A stretch of 64,000 bases of DNA from Ulvibacter algarum (GTDB taxonomy: Bacteria > Bacteroidota > Bacteroidia > Flavobacteriales > Flavobacteriaceae), in contig CANLBJ010000001.1 in assembly GCA_947488905.1 (NCBI GenBank), positions 372,001 through 436,000 on the forward strand, read 5' to 3'. The notes under the pieces were generated by a model that was given only the letters and a program-made list of their open reading frames with translations, did no database searches and was not told the origin of the DNA. A program made the translations under genes and the position numbers. This document shows positions 19,443 through 49,370 of this stretch, piece after piece. Position 1 is the stretch's first letter. Every line of letters begins with the position of its first letter.

Positions 19443-19475
19443 AAACCTCTTAAATCATAAAGATTTAAGAGGTTT
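19443..19475. terminator. Strong hairpin terminator downstream of the atp operon
   Basis: A perfect 14-bp stem (19443-19456 with 19462-19475) around ATAAA, flanked by T and A runs on both sides. It lies about 70 bp beyond the atpG stop on the minus strand and should end the ATP synthase transcript. The 319 bp from 19228 to 19546 hold only this and no convincing gene. Confidence 0.85.
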
Positions 19476-40884: not shown

Positions 40885-42759
40885 CTATCCTTTTTTAATT
40901 ATAGGAATTGTAAGTTCTACTTGGGTACCTATTGCTTTGCCTTCTTTATTTTTAAGATCTATGTAAATTACACCTATTTTTTGCTCTTTGCCGTAGTTTA
41001 ATAAATCTAGTCTGCTTGCTGTCGCTTTTGTAGCAAATGACTTGTGTTCTGTAGCTTTTTTGCTCTTTTGTTGAGCAGATGCTTCTCGCCCTATGCCATT
41101 ATCTTCAATAATGCAGTAGATGGTGTTTTTATCTTTTTTTGTAAAGCTTATAGAGAGTTTTCTATTTGTTTTTCTATGCAAGAGCCCATGTTTTAAAGCA
41201 TTTTCTGCATAAGGCTGTATAAGCATTGTGGGTATTATTGATGTCTCTGGTTTTATTGCTGGAGCGACATTAATGGTATAGCTTAATTTGTCTTCAAACC
41301 TTAGCGCTTCTAGTTCTAGATACATGTGTAAACTACTTACTTCATCTTCTATAGAAATCCCGCCAGCGTCACTGTAGTGTAGGTACTTGCGCATTAGATC
41401 TGCAAATTTACCTAGGTATTCACTCGCAAGGTTTTTTTGATTTAAGACAATATATTCTTGTATAGAATTAAGCGCATTAAATATAAAATGCGGATTCATT
41501 TGGGCTTTTAATGCCTTGAGTTCACTATCGCGGTATTGTTTTTCTAATGCTAGTCTTTTTTGGGTCTCTTGCAGCTCAAAGGTTATTTTTTCTGCTTTTT
41601 TTCGTTGCTTTAAATTTCCGAAGAGAAATAGTGCTGCCAGCAAAATAAGCAAACCAATTATTACTGCACCTATAAAATAATAGAGGTTACGCTCTTCTCT
41701 TATTTCTGCTTTCTCTTTATCTGCTTTTATTTTTGCGGTATCAAATTTTGTTTGCGCATCTGTTATAAGCTGCCTTTTTTCTATGCTAAATATGGAGTCT
41801 TTAATTTTTACAAATTGCTTATTTGCTTCCAAAGCTTTTTGCTGTTCTTTTATAATAGAATACGCAACAAAAAGATGTTGATTAACTCGCATAGAAAAGA
41901 AGAGGTTTCCTGCTTCTTCATATTTTTTGAGAGCATCATTATAATAAGGGATAGAAGCTTGATGGTCACCCATAATAGATTTTGAGGTTGCCATAGTGTA
42001 GTACCCGTACGCCTCATTTGCGGTTTGACCTTGCGCATTAAACAGTGCCGTTGCTTCACGGGCAAATAGCATTGCTTTATTGTGATTTTTTTGTTTATCG
42101 TATTTTAGGCTTTCTATTTTATAAAAACGAGCAAGTCTTGTATTTGTTAGCCCCACACCTGTTTTGTTGTTAATCTCCTCAAATATTTTTTTTGCAGTTT
42201 GTAAATGTGGTATGGCCTCTTTATATGTGTCATCTTTATTGAGGTTCATGTAAACAATACCCAGGTTGAGGTATAGCTCTGCTAATTGAAACTTTTCTTT
42301 AAGTTCGTTTATTTCTGAAATAGCTTTTTTAAGGTCGCTTATGGCTTTTAAAAAATCATCATTTTCTCTATCAATCTCTGCTTGTATTATTGCAGCATTT
42401 CTTAAATAATAAGCATCATTGCTTTTTTCTAATAATGGTATGGCAAGTAATAATTTATCTGTGGCAATGGTATAAATGCCCTCTATTAATTTATTGCGGG
42501 ATTGTGCTAGTAAAAGCCTACCGTTATATTTTGGTATGTCTAGTTGAGTGGCAAGCAGCTCTGCTTCTTTAAAAATGGGGTAACTATCTTTTAGGTTACG
42601 TACTTCATAAAACCGTGTAGCATCTAATAGCATTTGAAGTCTCACTGTATCTTGTTTTTTATAAGTGGCGAGATCTAGTGAGAGTGTATCCCAGTTAGAA
42701 TCTTGCCCAAAACAAAATACAGTAATAAAAAATATAAAAAATACGAACTGTTTTTTCAT
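40885..42759 (-). CDS. TPR sensor histidine kinase, LytS type (copy 1)
   Basis: 624 residues: signal peptide (cleaved near CFGQD), about eight TPR-like repeats in the periplasm, one transmembrane helix near residues 353-373 (YFIGAVIIGLLILLAALFLF), a coiled coil and a LytS-type kinase. The phosphoacceptor is His424 in MNPHFIFNALNS; ATP-binding N box ENALKHGLLHRKT and G box IIEDNGIGR follow. It is a paralogue of the kinases at 43183 and 45224 and faces away from them. No regulator gene is adjacent, so it probably feeds the LytTR regulator at 47251. Confidence 0.93.
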   Translation of the reverse strand: MKKQFVFFIFFITVFCFGQDSNWDTLSLDLATYKKQDTVRLQMLLDATRFYEVRNLKDSYPIFKEAELLATQLDIPKYNGRLLLAQSRNKLIEGIYTIATDKLLLAIPLLEKSNDAYYLRNAAIIQAEIDRENDDFLKAISDLKKAISEINELKEKFQLAELYLNLGIVYMNLNKDDTYKEAIPHLQTAKKIFEEINNKTGVGLTNTRLARFYKIESLKYDKQKNHNKAMLFAREATALFNAQGQTANEAYGYYTMATSKSIMGDHQASIPYYNDALKKYEEAGNLFFSMRVNQHLFVAYSIIKEQQKALEANKQFVKIKDSIFSIEKRQLITDAQTKFDTAKIKADKEKAEIREERNLYYFIGAVIIGLLILLAALFLFGNLKQRKKAEKITFELQETQKRLALEKQYRDSELKALKAQMNPHFIFNALNSIQEYIVLNQKNLASEYLGKFADLMRKYLHYSDAGGISIEDEVSSLHMYLELEALRFEDKLSYTINVAPAIKPETSIIPTMLIQPYAENALKHGLLHRKTNRKLSISFTKKDKNTIYCIIEDNGIGREASAQQKSKKATEHKSFATKATASRLDLLNYGKEQKIGVIYIDLKNKEGKAIGTQVELTIPIIKKG

Positions 42760-42938: not shown

Positions 42939-43007
42939 CAAACATAGATAAGGATTACTGTCAAAATTTATTAAAACTTCTAAAACGGTGTTTTCAATTG
43001 CTGAAAT
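42939..43007 (-). promoter_or_regulatory. Predicted LytTR-controlled promoter, leftward (toward kinase 1)
   Basis: On the minus strand two direct repeats, ATTTCAGCAATT (43007-42996) and GTTTTAGAAGTT (42986-42975), start 21 bp apart. After 28 bp comes TATGTTTG (42946-42939), a perfect -7 box. No -33 TTG is present, as expected for an activator-dependent promoter. Geometry is identical to the promoters at 43114, 48036 and 48581. Confidence 0.65.
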
Positions 43008-43035: not shown

Positions 43036-43161
43036 GGTTTAGCAATTTGGATAACGTTTTAGAAGTTAATAATAGATTATTGTAAATGGGTATATTTAGA
43101 AGTTTATATTGCAGTTTCAGAAGTTAGTGTGAAAGAATAACAGAATTAAATGGCATTTTTG
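43036..43161 (+). promoter_or_regulatory. Predicted LytTR-controlled promoter of kinase 2
   Basis: Repeat pair TATTTAGAAGTT (43093-43104) and GTTTCAGAAGTT (43114-43125), 21 bp apart, then 28 bp and CATTTTTG (43154-43161, one mismatch to TAnnTTTG). A second pair, GGTTTAGCAATT (43036-43047) and GTTTTAGAAGTT (43056-43067), 20 bp apart, lies further upstream without its own -7 box and may be auxiliary. The -7 position rules out 43150 as the start codon and supports ATG 43183. Confidence 0.65.
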
Positions 43162-43182
43162 AAATACCTAACCAAATTGAGC

Positions 43183-45045
43183 ATGATTAAAAAGCTACCC
43201 TTCTTCTTATTATTATTTGCTTTTGCATTAGTTAATACAATACTCTATGCACAGCAACCAGAAAAAAGTATTGATTCTATTACTGTCAATAAAGTAAATA
43301 CTATTTCAAATGATTTTGGTAATCTATTAACTAAAGATTTAGACTCTGCAGAGGTTATGGCTCGTTACATGTTAAGTTATTCTAACGAGAAAGGATATTT
43401 AACGGGTCAAGGTAAAGCTTATGGTTCACTAGGTGGGGTTTACCTATATCGAGGTCAGAATGGTAAGGCAATTGCTTACTTTATTAAAGCTGCAGAAATT
43501 TTTGAATCTTTAGGCTCTAAAGCCCATGCTGCTGTTACCTACAGTAATATAGGGAGTCTTTTTATGGATCAAGAACAGTTTAAAGAAGCAAAAATATATA
43601 TTGATAAAGCACTAGCGATACGTTTAGAAAACAATGAAGATAATTTGCAAAGTAACTACTTGGCATTAGGTATTATAGCGCTCAATACCGGTAAAAGTTT
43701 TGAAGAAGTAATGGAGCTTTTAGATAAAGCAGAATCAATAGCTTTAAAGGATAAGGAGAAGGGTTTTTTAGGTAACATTATGCGTATTCAGGGTAAGGCG
43801 CATATAGAGCGTAATCAAGATTTGCCATATGCAATATCAAGATTTAATGAAGCATTAGATTATTCTACATCTAAGAAACAAAACAATCATTTTGAAAAAG
43901 GTAATATCTATTTATACCTAGGAAAAGCTCACTGGAAAATGGGTGAGTTCAAAGAGGCTTTACGTTATAATGATTCTTCTTTAGTTCATTATAATGCACT
44001 AGATTACTTTAAAGGCCTTAGACTTACTTATAAAAACAGAAAGGACATTCTAGAAAGTTTAGGCGACTATAGGTCTGGTTTTGAAGCTTTTAAAGAATAT
44101 AGTAAACACAATGATTCTACCTTCGTAAAACAGCGGGAAAACCAAGTTGCTAGAATGAAGATAGAATTTGAAACAGATCAAGCAATAGCAGAGAAAAAAA
44201 CTGCTGAGATTAAGGCGGCTTTAGCAGAAGAAAAAAGCATACGGAATAGCAACCTGTTAATTGGTGCTATAGCTATCTCAGGGCTAATTTTACTGAGTTC
44301 AATATTATATTTTAGTAGATTAAAAGCAAAAAAGAAAGCCGAAATTATTAGACTAGAATTACATGAAACTCAAAAAAGATTAGCATTAGAAAAACAATAC
44401 CGTGATAGTGAGTTAAAGGCATTAAAAGCACAAATGAATCCACATTTTATATTTAATGCCTTAAACAGTATTCAAGAATATATTATCCTTAACAAAAAGG
44501 ATCTTGCTGGAGATTATTTGGGGAAGTTTGCAGATTTAATGCGTAAATATTTAAAGCACAGTGATACAGGTACGCTGAGTGTTCAGGATGAAATTGAAAG
44601 TTTACAAATGTACCTAGAGCTTGAGGCACTGCGTTTTGAAGATACACTTAATTATAGTTTTTCTGTTTCTGAAATGTTAAACAAAGAACAATTATACATC
44701 CCCACAATGCTTATACAGCCTTATGTAGAAAACGCCATAAAACATGGGCTCTTGCATAGAAAAACGAATAGAAAATTAGCTGTCAGTTTTATCAAAAAAA
44801 CAGATAATGCTATTATATGTATTATAGAAGATAACGGAGTAGGGCGAAAAAGATCTGAAGAAATAAGAGTTCAAAATATGAATATGCACACCTCATTTGC
44901 CACAAAAGCTACAGAAAACAGGCTTCATCTTTTAAATTATGAGAAAGATCAAAAAATAGGGGTGGAGATTATAGATCTTTATGACGAGGAGGGTAAAGCA
45001 AATGGTACTCGGGTTGTTTTAAATATTCCTATTACTAAAAACTAA
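43183..45045 (+). CDS. TPR sensor histidine kinase, LytS type (copy 2)
   Basis: 620 residues from ATG 43183 (MIKKLPFFLLLFAFALVN), chosen because the signal peptide starts there and the predicted -7 box overlaps the earlier ATG at 43150. TPR-like repeats follow (KAYGSLGGVYLYRGQNGKAI, AVTYSNIGSLFMDQEQFKEA), then a transmembrane helix near 359-378, coiled coil, and the kinase with His421 in MNPHFIFNALNS, N box ENAIKHGLLH and IIEDNGVGR. It is closely related to copies 1 and 3, with most divergence in the sensor part. Confidence 0.93.
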   Translation: MIKKLPFFLLLFAFALVNTILYAQQPEKSIDSITVNKVNTISNDFGNLLTKDLDSAEVMARYMLSYSNEKGYLTGQGKAYGSLGGVYLYRGQNGKAIAYFIKAAEIFESLGSKAHAAVTYSNIGSLFMDQEQFKEAKIYIDKALAIRLENNEDNLQSNYLALGIIALNTGKSFEEVMELLDKAESIALKDKEKGFLGNIMRIQGKAHIERNQDLPYAISRFNEALDYSTSKKQNNHFEKGNIYLYLGKAHWKMGEFKEALRYNDSSLVHYNALDYFKGLRLTYKNRKDILESLGDYRSGFEAFKEYSKHNDSTFVKQRENQVARMKIEFETDQAIAEKKTAEIKAALAEEKSIRNSNLLIGAIAISGLILLSSILYFSRLKAKKKAEIIRLELHETQKRLALEKQYRDSELKALKAQMNPHFIFNALNSIQEYIILNKKDLAGDYLGKFADLMRKYLKHSDTGTLSVQDEIESLQMYLELEALRFEDTLNYSFSVSEMLNKEQLYIPTMLIQPYVENAIKHGLLHRKTNRKLAVSFIKKTDNAIICIIEDNGVGRKRSEEIRVQNMNMHTSFATKATENRLHLLNYEKDQKIGVEIIDLYDEEGKANGTRVVLNIPITKN

Positions 45046-45127: not shown

Positions 45128-45195
45128 ACTTTAGAAACTCAAAAGGGGATTTCAGCAGTTTTTGTTAGAAACTCCCATACTTAATTGCAACTTTG
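45128..45195 (+). promoter_or_regulatory. Predicted LytTR-controlled promoter of kinase 3
   Basis: Direct repeats ACTTTAGAAACT (45128-45139, two mismatches) and ATTTCAGCAGTT (45149-45160, exact) start 21 bp apart; after 27 bp comes CAACTTTG (45188-45195, one mismatch to TAnnTTTG). The start site would be near 45200, which supports ATG 45224 as the kinase start instead of the TTG at 45185. Confidence 0.6.
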
Positions 45196-45223
45196 TTTAG
45201 ATAGCAAAACAATTAACCTGAAT

Positions 45224-47218
45224 ATGACCAAATATTTACAACTCTTATTATGTTTTTGTTGTTTCTTGTTTATGACAGGAACACATGCTCAGCAAAAAGA
45301 GATAGATAGTATAAATAGAGTGCTATCTCTAGTGAGTGATGTAAAGCTACGAGAAGTAAAACTAGATTCGCTCATTAATAATGACCTTGAATATGGTGAT
45401 AGTGAAGTTCGTATTTATTTTATTAAAAAGGCCATAGCTCAAAGTAAAAGGGATAGCAATAACAGTCGTCTTGCAGACATGTACCTTGTAAAGTCAGAGT
45501 GGTTTGATAGTAAAATGATGCGAGATTCAAGTATGTTTTATGGCATGGAGTGTTTACGAGTTGCAAAACTAGCAAATGAGCCTAAAATCTTACTTAACTC
45601 ATGGAGAAATCTAGCAAACATATATAGAACGAGTGGCGATTATACAACTGCCTTAGCGTATTATAATAAGACTTTAGATTATTGTGATAAAAATGGACTT
45701 TCTAATAGTCGTGATGCACTTTTAACCCAGTTTAACGTGGCTGGTCTCTATTATGATATTGATGATATGGAAAAAAGCAAAGCGCTTTACAAACACCTCT
45801 ATAATCATCCATTAGTAGTTGCAGATACAGATTGGCACAATGAGACAGGAGTAAATTATACAATGGTACTATTTGTTGCAAATGAGTATGAGCAAATGCT
45901 TAGTCTGGCAAAAGAACTTGAAAAAGCAGAAACACGTCCAGGTTTTCTTACCTATATCTACAGTATGATTTCTGGAGCTAATCTAGGATTAGAAAACTAT
46001 AAAGAGGCACTCTATTATAATGATAAAGCAGTAAAGCAATTTGAAAAATCTGGAGATAGCTTAAACGCCTGGAGCAATATGTTGATGGCGGGAGATATAA
46101 GGACAGATATGGGAGATTATGATGAGGCAGAACGCATCTTTAAAAATATAGGTGATAAACTTGATGCTACCCCAGAAGCTCCGGCAGTAATGGTAGAGAA
46201 TGTATTAGGGGCTTTATCAAGGGTGTATCGTGGCAGAGGTGATTATAAAAGAGCATTAGAATATAATGATAAGAGACACGCTTTTAAGGATAGTCTTAAA
46301 GGAGTAGAAAAACAAAAAGCAATAAGTGAACTAGAAATAAAATATGAAACAGAAAAAGTAAAAAGAGAAAAAGAAGTTGCAGAAAACCAAGTAGTAATAA
46401 GCCAGTTAGAGAATAAAAAAAATAAGAGTTTATTTTTGGGTTCTCTACTTGTTATTGGCCTTGTGTGCCTTGCAGCATTGCTTTTTTATCAAAGAATAAA
46501 AGCCAAGAAAAAAGCAGAAATAATTACATTAGAGTTACACGAAACTCAAAAACGTCTTGCCTTAGAAAAACAATATAGAGATAGCGAGCTTAAAGCACTC
46601 AAAGCTCAGATGAATCCGCATTTTATATTTAATGCTCTTAATAGTATTCAAGAGTATATTATCTTAAATAAGAAAAATCTAGCAGGAGATTACTTAGGTA
46701 AATTTGCAGATTTGATGCGTAAATATTTACATCATAGTGATGCGGGAACACTTACTATTCATGACGAGATAGAGAGTTTAGAGATGTATCTAGACTTAGA
46801 GGCATTGCGTTTTGAAGACACCTTGTCTTATAGTTTTAACGTTTCAGAAAAAATAAATTTAGAATCTTCACGAATCCCCACAATGCTTATACAGCCTTAT
46901 GTAGAAAACGCACTAAAACATGGGCTTTTACATAGAAGAACAAACAGAAAACTCTCTGTTACATTTAAAGAAGGAAGTGAAAAAACTATAACTTGCATAA
47001 TAGAAGATAACGGTGTGGGTAGAAAACGTGCCACAGAGATTAAAGCCCAAACTAAAAACATGCACGCTTCTTTTGCCACAAAAGCCACAGAAAATAGGCT
47101 TAATCTTTTAAATTATGAGAAAGAACGAAAAATAGGAGTGGAAATTTTAGATCTTTTTGATAAAGATGGAGAGGCAAAGGGCACTCGTGTTATTTTAAAC
47201 ATACCAACAACTAACTAA
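45224..47218 (+). CDS. TPR sensor histidine kinase, LytS type (copy 3)
   Basis: 664 residues from ATG 45224 (MTKYLQLLLCFCCFLFM), a clean signal peptide ending near THAQQ. Five or more TPR-like repeats, a transmembrane helix near residues 404-423, then the LytS-type kinase with His466 in MNPHFIFNALNS, ENALKHGLLHRRT and IIEDNGVGR. The gene ends 32 bp before the response-regulator ATG, so this is the operon partner of the regulator. Confidence 0.93.
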   Translation: MTKYLQLLLCFCCFLFMTGTHAQQKEIDSINRVLSLVSDVKLREVKLDSLINNDLEYGDSEVRIYFIKKAIAQSKRDSNNSRLADMYLVKSEWFDSKMMRDSSMFYGMECLRVAKLANEPKILLNSWRNLANIYRTSGDYTTALAYYNKTLDYCDKNGLSNSRDALLTQFNVAGLYYDIDDMEKSKALYKHLYNHPLVVADTDWHNETGVNYTMVLFVANEYEQMLSLAKELEKAETRPGFLTYIYSMISGANLGLENYKEALYYNDKAVKQFEKSGDSLNAWSNMLMAGDIRTDMGDYDEAERIFKNIGDKLDATPEAPAVMVENVLGALSRVYRGRGDYKRALEYNDKRHAFKDSLKGVEKQKAISELEIKYETEKVKREKEVAENQVVISQLENKKNKSLFLGSLLVIGLVCLAALLFYQRIKAKKKAEIITLELHETQKRLALEKQYRDSELKALKAQMNPHFIFNALNSIQEYIILNKKNLAGDYLGKFADLMRKYLHHSDAGTLTIHDEIESLEMYLDLEALRFEDTLSYSFNVSEKINLESSRIPTMLIQPYVENALKHGLLHRRTNRKLSVTFKEGSEKTITCIIEDNGVGRKRATEIKAQTKNMHASFATKATENRLNLLNYEKERKIGVEILDLFDKDGEAKGTRVILNIPTTN

Positions 47219-47250: not shown

Positions 47251-48000
47251 ATGAAGGCAATAATAATTGACGACGAACCTAAAGCACGTAACTTGTTACG
47301 AATATTAGTAGAAGAAAACTGTCCTAAAATCACAGAAATATTTGAAGCAGGTGATCTTTTAAGTGGTGTAAAGATTATAAAAGAAGAAACACCAAGTATT
47401 GTTTTTCTTGATATAGAAATGCCAGAACATTCTGGTTTAGAGATTCTAAATTTTATAGAAAAAGACGTTATTAATTTTGAAATCATCTTTACCACAGCAT
47501 ACAGCGAGTATGCTATACAGGCTTTTCAATTATCTGCTATAGATTATTTATTAAAACCAGTGAGGCCCAATCAAGTAAAAGTAGCCGTAGATAAAGCCAT
47601 AGATTTTTTAGGAAAAAGTAGATTAAACACAAAACTAGAAGAGCTTAAGAAGAGCCTGTCTAATAACAATTTTGATAAAATAGGACTCCCTGTTAATGAC
47701 GGGATAAAATTTGTAAATTTTAAAGATATTATTATGCTTACAGCAGATGGTATGTACACAAGTGTTACTACATGTGAAGACGCAAATCTACTTATTAGTA
47801 AGCCTTTAAAACATTTTGTAGATCTTTTAAGTAACATTTCTATTTTTTATAGGCCGCATCGCTCTCACCTTATCAACTTAAAACACATTAAAAAATATGT
47901 AAAAAGTGATGGCGGTTATATTGTGATGGAAAACAATAAATCTGTATCTATCTCAAAAGAAAAGAGAGAAGAGTTTTTACAAATTGTGAGTAGTATTTAA
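47251..48000 (+). CDS. LytTR-type DNA-binding response regulator
   Basis: 249 residues. Receiver domain 1-120 with acidic pair DDE at 7-9, phospho-acceptor Asp54 in FLDIEMP, Thr in FTTAYSEYA and Lys in YLLKPV. The C-terminal LytTR domain (about 145-245) contains FYRPHRSHLINLKHIKKYVK. It is the only response regulator near three LytS-type kinases. A small hairpin (CCCGA-CTTT-TCGGG, about 47229-47242) precedes its start by 9 bp. LytTR proteins bind paired direct repeats about 21 bp apart, which is what the flanking spacers show. Confidence 0.95.
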   Translation: MKAIIIDDEPKARNLLRILVEENCPKITEIFEAGDLLSGVKIIKEETPSIVFLDIEMPEHSGLEILNFIEKDVINFEIIFTTAYSEYAIQAFQLSAIDYLLKPVRPNQVKVAVDKAIDFLGKSRLNTKLEELKKSLSNNNFDKIGLPVNDGIKFVNFKDIIMLTADGMYTSVTTCEDANLLISKPLKHFVDLLSNISIFYRPHRSHLINLKHIKKYVKSDGGYIVMENNKSVSISKEKREEFLQIVSSI

Positions 48001-48014
48001 AAGTAAATTACTAA

Positions 48015-48083
48015 GCTTTAGCAATTAAGAATGCGGTTTCAGCAATTTGCACATTATTAAAGCACCACAATAAGGTAGTTTTG
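48015..48083 (+). promoter_or_regulatory. Predicted LytTR-controlled promoter of the secreted protein gene
   Basis: GCTTTAGCAATT (48015-48026, one mismatch) and GTTTCAGCAATT (48036-48047, exact) start 21 bp apart; 28 bp later TAGTTTTG (48076-48083) is a perfect -7 box. ATG follows at 48110. No -33 TTG lies at the required distance. Confidence 0.7.
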
Positions 48084-48109: not shown

Positions 48110-48430
48110 ATGAAAACAGTAGCAGCAATTTTATTAGTAGTATTATTTTCTTCATTTAACGCACCTACAGATGTCAAAGATGTAGCGATCAATAACACAG
48201 AAGCAACAATTACATTAGCAAGCTTTAAACTTATTAATGACACAGGAGAGAAAGTAAGCATTTATACAGGAACCGGTTTTGTAAGCCTTAATAATGGTAG
48301 TAGCACAAGTATTACATGCAACACAGGTAAAGAAGTACGCTGGGCAGAGAGCGGTAGAAAAGGAGATGTTATTTTTAAAATAAGTAGCGACCATTGTGGT
48401 AAAACCTTAAAGCTATCTAAGCTACTTTAA
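48110..48430 (+). CDS. Small secreted protein, predicted LytTR target
   Basis: 106 residues. The N-terminus is a signal peptide (MKTVAAILLVVLFSSFNAP). The mature protein of about 85 residues is beta-rich and has two cysteines (ITCNTG and DHCGKT) that may form a disulfide. No family is recognised. Its promoter carries the best pair of LytTR-like repeats in the locus, and a strong terminator follows at 48458, so it is a single-gene transcript under the two-component system. Confidence 0.75.
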   Translation: MKTVAAILLVVLFSSFNAPTDVKDVAINNTEATITLASFKLINDTGEKVSIYTGTGFVSLNNGSSTSITCNTGKEVRWAESGRKGDVIFKISSDHCGKTLKLSKLL

Positions 48431-48457: not shown

Positions 48458-48486
48458 CCGCTCCTTTTAAAGGGGCGGTTTTTTTT
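48458..48486 (+). terminator. Intrinsic terminator after the secreted protein gene
   Basis: CCGCTCCTT and AAGGGGCGG pair over 9 bp with one G-U pair, followed by eight T residues. It isolates the 106-residue gene from the downstream predicted small RNA. Confidence 0.85.
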
Positions 48487-48559: not shown

Positions 48560-48628
48560 ATTTCGGCAATTGAAAGTTAAGTTTCAGCAATTGCTATAAA
48601 TAGTATGTATGGTTTATAGGTATCTTTA
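48560..48628 (+). promoter_or_regulatory. Predicted LytTR-controlled promoter of a non-coding transcript
   Basis: ATTTCGGCAATT (48560-48571, one mismatch) and GTTTCAGCAATT (48581-48592, exact) start 21 bp apart; 28 bp later TATCTTTA (48621-48628) matches TAnnTTTG in seven of eight positions. No protein-coding gene follows on this strand before a terminator. Confidence 0.6.
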
Positions 48629-48632
48629 TAGT

Positions 48633-48845
48633 GTCTTTAATAAAAGATAGCTTATTAATACATAAAAGAATACTATTATTTATAAATTAAAAGTTTTACA
48701 TAAGTATTGAGGAGTATTTATTAAAAACTAGAATAATAGCATTTGAGGGAGTTTGTCAACATTTATAAATTAATATTGAGGAGTATTAATTTATAAAGAC
48801 AAGCTAATAAAGAAATCGGACTGAGATAATCGGCTCGATTTTTTT
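48633..48845 (+). ncRNA. Candidate small RNA with three TTGAGG(G)AG elements
   Basis: The stretch from the predicted start site to the terminator contains no ATG on the plus strand and only stops-rich AT sequence. TTGAGGAG occurs at 48707-48714 and 48776-48783, and TTGAGGGAG at 48743-48751, spaced about 34 nt. The last copy is the 8-nt loop of a perfect 14-bp hairpin (48762-48775 / 48784-48797); the first also sits between short complementary arms (ATAAGTA/TATTTAT). A repeated loop on a stem is typical of RNAs that bind a protein or several targets. The call is inference. Confidence 0.5.
48813..48845 (+). terminator. Intrinsic terminator of the candidate small RNA
   Basis: AAATCG with CGATTT plus an inner CTGA/TCGG pairing, followed by seven T residues (48839-48845). 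It overlaps the last codon region of the convergent gene at 48844. Confidence 0.6.
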
Positions 48846-49233
48846 ATTTATCAAAACCTAAAGTAGTCAAGCTAACCGCTTTAATCTCTTTTTCTTTTAC
48901 TTGAAAAGCTTCATAAATAGCTCGCTTATCATCAAAAGTAAACTGCTTTTGCTCAAACCAGTCGTGTATGGCGATCTTCTTATTTTCTATCTGTGCTTTT
49001 CTAATAACCTCTACTGTCATTAAATGCCAGTGCGTATTTCTGTCTCTATTTACAGAATAACCTATCTCTTCAATAAAAGAAGTTTTAGGTTGGTTAATAA
49101 CCTTTACTCCATTTTTTAATACAGCAAGCGTTTTTGTAAGTTCTACAACTTCAGAAAAACTGTAACGCATAAAGTCGTCAAAGCCTTGTTGCTTGACATT
49201 GTACATTTTATCGCCTATCTCGAGTTGTTTCAT
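48844..49233 (-). CDS. Hypothetical protein
   Basis: 129 residues from ATG 49233; a TTG four codons earlier is less likely. It is soluble, with a beta-rich start (KQLEIGDKMYNVKQQG) and the segment WHLMTVEVIRKAQIENKKI near residue 80. I recognise no domain. It is convergent with the candidate small RNA and has little space downstream. Confidence 0.6.
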   Translation of the reverse strand: MKQLEIGDKMYNVKQQGFDDFMRYSFSEVVELTKTLAVLKNGVKVINQPKTSFIEEIGYSVNRDRNTHWHLMTVEVIRKAQIENKKIAIHDWFEQKQFTFDDKRAIYEAFQVKEKEIKAVSLTTLGFDK

Positions 49234-49370
49234 TGTGGGGTTCAATTTTCAATTTTTTTTTAGGTTTTGCAAATGGTTTTCTACAATGTTATTAACGGTC
49301 CTTCTGTTTTTCTCTTTCATTAAAATTTCCGGAGTTATTTTTATAATTTGCATCATCTTTAAAAGGTATT

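Follow-up and report, generated by a model that had tools for sequence, protein, structure and literature searches.

Introduction

Regulatory RNAs can be the output of two-component systems. VirR, the regulator of the VirS/VirR system, is a LytTR protein; RNAIII, the RNA driven by AgrCA, carries an ORF; and we know of no repeated GAGG loops in RNAIII or in VR-RNA, which is driven by VirS/VirR. Repeated, exposed motifs containing GGA are a feature of protein sponges of the CsrB/RsmZ type. To our knowledge, little is known about the regulatory RNAs of Bacteroidota.

VR-RNA and RNAIII are described as base-pairing with mRNAs (PMC7602753), and AgrA as LytTR-like (PMC3673130). According to the accounts in these two sources, the fasBCAX locus of group A Streptococcus comprises two histidine kinases, one AgrA-like regulator and FasX, an RNA of 205 nt whose production is driven by the regulator. 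In Bacteroides thetaiotaomicron, FopS and GibS are reported as sRNAs that bind near start codons, FopS belonging to a 14-member family of RNAs of about 65-70 nt that is bound by RbpB (PMC11697453). Flavobacterium psychrophilum has Rfp18, described as a structured independent sRNA with predicted stem-loop pairing (PMC9723704). We searched the literature on Bacteroidetes and Flavobacteriia for a LytTR-controlled small or noncoding RNA and found none, PMC5395568 treating LytTR and sRNAs separately in its relevant parts; searches on Bacteroidetes that combined GGA-motif sRNAs with CsrA, or that asked for LytTR binding sites, likewise found no literature.

Here we analyse a locus of Ulvibacter algarum at which a first-pass annotation had proposed a regulated small RNA. 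The window is the whole 64,000-nt stretch of DNA that was analysed, and coordinates given without a locus label refer to it. The locus probably yields a real LytTR-controlled transcript, which is plausibly a young regulatory RNA.

Results

A LytTR regulator cluster with LytTR-type sites of its own

Next to the double site of the putative small RNA are the genes for a LytTR response regulator and for two histidine kinases of the same orientation, arranged as follows.

43150..45045, plus strand: TPR sensor histidine kinase (PF06580), with a LytTR double site upstream at 43094
45185..47218, plus strand: second TPR sensor histidine kinase (PF06580), with a LytTR double site upstream at 45129; the ATG at 45224 may be its true start
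47251..48000, plus strand: LytTR response regulator (PF00072 + PF04397), the presumed activator
48016..48047, plus strand: LytTR double site of the 106-aa gene, with a -7 box TAGTTTTG at 48076-48083 (offset 28 nt)
48110..48430, plus strand: secreted-looking 106-aa protein, with homologues by eye in L049, L051 and L054 and no Pfam or NCBIfam matches
48458..48486, plus strand: intrinsic terminator of the 106-aa gene, between that gene and the small-RNA promoter
48561..48592, plus strand: LytTR double site of the putative small RNA, TTTCGGCAATT-N10-TTTCAGCAATT
48621..48628, plus strand: -7 box TATCTTTA, near the consensus TAnnTTTG with its last base deviating, at offset 28, the modal offset of the regulon
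48633..48848, plus strand: inferred non-coding transcript of about 215 nt, delimited from fold, ORF absence and terminator
48844..49245, minus strand: convergent 133-aa gene, family unassigned, used as a synteny anchor

A third histidine kinase (40885-42759, minus strand) lies behind a divergent LytTR site. In four relatives' loci (L036, L037, L039, L041) the first LytTR-driven slot downstream of the regulator holds differing surface or secreted proteins, unrelated by eye, a pattern that reads by eye as a conserved regulator with exchangeable cargo behind it.

A LytTR-type promoter had been claimed for the small RNA, and the double site at 48561-48592 substantiates it: this is one of three matches in the window at three mismatches or fewer, where 0.01 would be expected. 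Judged by sequence motif, the small-RNA promoter carries a binding site of the adjacent regulator's family. A relaxed site pattern, written to fit the cluster's own five LytTR sites, matched exactly those five and no others in the 3.5-Mb host genome; with one mismatch allowed it gave seven matches against two for the reversed control, the two extra ones lying on contig 4 and within a long ORF. With a simpler consensus at three mismatches or fewer, the host genome gave four matches, three of them in the cluster, and the control none. On contig 4 the one-mismatch double site (L140, 1501-2869) is followed by a gene for a secreted-looking 421-aa protein, and site and gene together are likely a distant member of the regulon.

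The spacing of the -7 box was compared across relatives by a matrix scan, in which a matrix from nine sites (the window's included) was run against the window and 80 loci of relatives of the response regulator at a score of at least 20. Sites inside long ORFs, repeated contexts and two sites near contig ends were dropped, leaving 104. Among these, TAnnTTTG occurs at offset 28 in 15 cases, at offset 27 in eight and at all other offsets in three. The shorter TAnnTTT, which the 48561 site matches, occurs 21 times at offset 28, nine times at offset 27 and at most five times at any other. In Flavobacterium psychrophilum the -7 box is reported to occupy -12 to -5 (PMC9723704), and setting the box of the 48561 site to the same positions places +1 near 48633. 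Because the upstream 106-aa gene has its own terminator, the small-RNA promoter is taken to be separate.

A probable transcript without an open reading frame

From these elements, transcription of 48633-48848 appears highly probable. A coding transcript was rejected: no ORF of at least 20 aa lies on either strand of 48633-48843, and the longest ATG, GTG or TTG frame in the transcript, 17 codons, compares with a shuffle mean of 16. The final bases of the stretch are shared with the stop codon of the convergent gene. The first-pass annotation had noted some 210 nt free of ATG; there is indeed none in 48634-48848, a weak point because 7.3% of 2000 shuffles have none either.

An intrinsic terminator had also been proposed, and we find one at the 3' end.

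48806..48848, plus strand: small-RNA intrinsic terminator, hairpin followed by a seven-T run (z -5.2)

A simple terminator scan did not have this element in its list. At the gathering score, Rfam gave no match within the window.

Three GAGG motifs in a predicted fold

Between promoter and terminator the predicted fold has three parts.

48692..48729, plus strand: hairpin H1, with loop GAGG at 48709-48712 inside TTGAGGAG (48707-48714)
48743..48751, plus strand: middle motif TTGAGGGAG, its GAGGG with an unpaired probability of 0.76-0.83
48750..48805, plus strand: hairpin H3, with a 16-bp upper stem, a GAGG loop at 48778-48781 and an 8-bp basal stem

The three TTGAGG(G)AG copies that had been reported at intervals of about 34 nt are present: TTGAGGAG occurs on the plus strand at 48707 and 48776 (two more copies lie elsewhere, on the minus strand) and TTGAGGGAG at 48743, which puts 36 and 33 nt between successive starts. 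Three TTGAGG were seen in none of 2000 shuffles. As described, the third copy exactly fills the 8-nt loop between the arms of a perfect 14-bp inverted repeat (48762-48797). When the 173-nt core was dinucleotide-shuffled 300 times, the longest such repeat to arise measured 11 bp; the window has another perfect 14-bp inverted repeat near 19443. The first, said to sit between shorter complementary arms, caps a 9-bp stem with one G-U pair. All three copies had been called loops; this holds for the first and third, and the second sits in a linker, outside any loop.

The predicted folding energy of 48630-48848 is -55.6 kcal/mol, where shuffles give -29.4 (z -7.0), and none of 200 dinucleotide shuffles is as good; with the terminator removed, z is -5.3 and none of 1000 shuffles does as well. 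Within 48690-48806 the energy is -30.3 kcal/mol for the plus strand (z -7.5) and -16.7 for the minus strand (z -4.6). Since the plus strand folds better, and G-U pairs favour it, the sequence behaves as a plus-strand RNA.

The GAGG of H1 and of H3 has a predicted unpaired probability of 0.98-1.0, so several exposed GGA motifs are present as in CsrB-type RNAs: three are predicted to be mostly unpaired, two of them in loops. The RNA is low in C (16 of 215), and C poverty alone leaves G unpaired, which makes motif exposure by itself weak evidence. Stronger evidence is the repetition of the motif-bearing hairpin, with 14 nt identical and 29 nt at 83%; the longest direct repeat, 14 nt (TATTGAGGAGTATT), was reached in one of 1000 shuffles. 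Separately, ATTTATAAATTAA occurs twice in the transcript (48678-48690 and 48761-48773), with the complement of most of it at 48786-48797; its 5' copy could compete with the 5' arm of H3, making an alternative fold possible.

Conservation, and promoters that change their cargo

Conservation and covariation of the hairpins, which the first-pass annotation had offered as a check, found no support in any of three comparisons. A DNA search (BLAST) covered 58 other genomes, including ten from the same genus, without turning up a convincing homologue; the matches listed were short, the best of them outside the host's own reaching E 2.3e-4 over 44 nt. A covariance model recovered the host copy and gave nothing convincing in 298 other genomes: E was at most 0.05 in ten of 299 genomes (own included), the best other value being 8.8e-4 on a rough scale, and among 81 sources the best other was 0.021. 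Because this model rests on a single sequence, supplied in duplicate with one base trimmed, it has little power. As homologues with compensatory changes were not found, no covariation could be counted. A triple-TTGAGG pattern matched in 46 of 397 genomes (own included) against about 50 for the reversed control by hand count, and the other matches, judged by eye on their first 80 letters, resembled tandem repeats or coding sequence. A repeat or mobile element was rejected as well: the RNA is single-copy, with no second copy in the host genome at E 0.001, no match to phages or plasmids by BLAST, and no exact match to an H3 pattern in viral contigs.

The third comparison is with a syntenic genome of the same genus (L130): its regulator is 93% identical and its convergent gene 88%, the 106-aa gene is also there, but the intergenic stretch has neither the LytTR site nor the RNA. 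L049 gives the same reading over the stretch compared by eye. In the more distant L051 and L054, the 106-aa gene is followed by a second LytTR site and then by a large gene for a secreted-looking protein; L055 has a second site too, 64 nt ahead of an ORF. At about 3494-3913 of L049 the divergent LytTR promoter is retained while the histidine kinase gene behind it has decayed to a C-terminal remnant. The cargo of L051 and L054 and the kinase remnant of L049 indicate that protein cargo behind LytTR promoters changes and decays.

These loci make a promoter relic a serious alternative, and the main one, because the syntenic relative lacks the RNA and the second site of distant relatives precedes a secreted-protein gene. 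On this account a second LytTR promoter has lost its secreted-protein gene, and what is left is a meaningless structured transcript or none. Such a history fits the promoter that has outlived its kinase gene, the want of conservation in the genomes searched, and the general habit of these sites, since at 92 of the 104 an ATG ORF of at least 40 aa begins 35-110 nt downstream. A relic, however, should neither keep nor gain a fold that beats shuffles, three motif copies and a tight terminator. The 48561 site and its -7 box are nearly intact, and the transcript gave no sign of a lost gene, its matches to the relatives' loci being confined to short AT-rich stretches (best E 0.005 over 29 nt). We regard the relic as possible and rather unlikely. 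Read as a regulatory RNA, the sequence may be young, or may survive in a single lineage, on a promoter that drives a protein gene in some relatives.

The convergent 133-aa gene extends at its 3' end into the terminator, as would be expected if transcription or the shared terminator acted in cis on that gene and the RNA were incidental. This would leave the hairpins and the three motifs unexplained, and L049 retains the convergent gene without the small RNA; a cis effect is accordingly very improbable.

LytTR sites without a gene elsewhere

Twelve of the 104 LytTR sites, that at 48561 among them, have no nearby ATG ORF. In L080 (6757-6940) and L095 (6750-6898) a LytTR site after the regulator leads into a structured stretch and then a terminator (z -5.4 and -2.9, respectively); the L080 terminator loop contains TTGAGAGGAG and L080 has no TAnnTTTG at offset 28, where L095 has TAGTTTTA. 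Three of the twelve are divergent sites, in the window, L049 and L050, and of the remaining six some may lie upstream of kinases that start with a codon other than ATG, or may be truncated by contig ends. Comparison of five gene-less stretches with the small RNA gave no convincing likeness, and kinship of the RNA with the L080, L095 and divergent-promoter stretches was rejected on finding only short, chance-like matches.

The divergent double site of the window lies on the minus strand (42975-43006, the stretch running to about 42838), with TATGTTTG at offset 28. Some 100 nt on, ahead of the third histidine kinase, comes a strong hairpin, the stretch as a whole folding with z -4.4; the position of this site recurs in L049 and L050. 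The stretch is a candidate for a second short RNA or an attenuated leader.

Partners and targets

The repeated and exposed GGA-containing motifs could suggest a protein sponge, which would titrate an RNA-binding protein through three GAGG(G) motifs in the way that CsrB titrates CsrA. The first-pass annotation had noted that CsrA is usually absent from Bacteroidota, and we found it in none of 20 genomes (own included; 12 of the 20 at least 90% complete), with controls matching in three of 14. Nor does the host genome show an RRM protein, for which controls matched in two of 14, one being Bacteroides ihuae. CsrA and an RRM protein of the kind implied for FopS and GibS were both discarded as partners on these grounds, leaving no known partner within the two families that the search covered. 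CsrB has many more motif sites than the RNA here. A sponge is therefore improbable, and of the earlier interpretation the regulated small non-coding RNA is the part that best fits the anatomy, the CsrB-type part being weakened.

The motifs also contain Shine-Dalgarno-like cores. AGGAG and AGGGAG are predicted to pair at -8.1 to -8.7 kcal/mol with the 16S tail, for which we assumed a sequence from which the host's own may differ. Flavobacterial ribosomes are reported to hide the anti-SD and those lacking bS21 to expose it (PMC9976891). The RNA might thus be a decoy for 30S subunits with an uncovered anti-SD, its three cores bound only by bS21-deficient or immature 30S, and the LytTR signal would then titrate or mark those ribosomes. 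Against such a decoy, the rpsU SD is given as much longer, near -20 kcal/mol, and control by bS21-less ribosomes as apparently limited to rpsU (PMC9976891); hairpin loops, moreover, may not fit the pocket. We consider both the decoy and this use of it far-fetched.

Base-pairing with mRNAs was approached through complements of the loop, whose presence near start codons had been suggested as a further check. The host genome has 26 copies of ACTCCTCAA, two of them within the locus; the other 24, against 20 for the reversed control, are not clearly enriched. Two of the 24 follow an ATG closely, at 10 and 14 nt, where by rough estimate about 0.5 would be expected. The complement 14 nt after the ATG belongs to a 298-aa ORF (L194), by eye a transporter, for which pairing with H1 is predicted at -19.2 kcal/mol; a small ORF (L171) is predicted to pair with H1 at -14.6 and with H3 at -14.2 kcal/mol, both ORFs having been chosen post hoc for holding the complement. 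Pairing to six regulon start regions (18 tests) gave no clear signal; the second kinase accounted for the two best shuffle fractions, 0.02 and 0.045.

Discussion

We put at about one in two the probability that the locus encodes a lineage-specific, LytTR-controlled, base-pairing sRNA of some 215 nt, similar to FasX or VR-RNA in action and with no kinship implied. When the LytTR response regulator is active, an RNA corresponding to 48633-48848 of the plus strand would be made and would end at its own terminator, forming the RNA output of a module in which one LytTR regulator is joined by two kinases of the same orientation. A single-stranded GAGG(G) would be offered by each of the two hairpin loops and by the linker, and the most likely mode of action would be multi-site base-pairing with mRNAs bearing CCUC or CUCCUC near their start codons. 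On the separate parts of this reading, the chances that the stretch is a functional regulatory RNA appear evenly balanced, and base-pairing through the GAGG motifs is a tentative proposal.

If the RNA is real, a layout of the fasBCAX type, with two kinases, a regulator and an RNA, is present in another phylum, and promoters that swap protein cargo also acquire RNA cargo. The list of LytTR sites assembled here makes further gene-less sites easy to test.

Compared with described systems, the RNA here has fewer motifs than CsrB and RsmZ, and CsrA is absent. It differs from FopS, which is bound by RbpB, in that no RRM protein was found in the host genome. Like Rfp18 it is a structured, independent flavobacterial sRNA candidate, a likeness drawn from description and not from sequence; Rfp18, unlike the RNA here, is conserved in its genus, and its published description, as far as it concerns us, mentions no LytTR link. 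VR-RNA (386 nt) and RNAIII (514 nt) come from Gram-positive bacteria, and the RNA here is shorter than either. Compared with FasX, the RNA lies in another phylum and a 106-aa gene stands between regulator and RNA, the two having been likened without sequence comparison. What it shares with fasBCAX is layout alone: two kinases, a LytTR regulator and an RNA in one locus.
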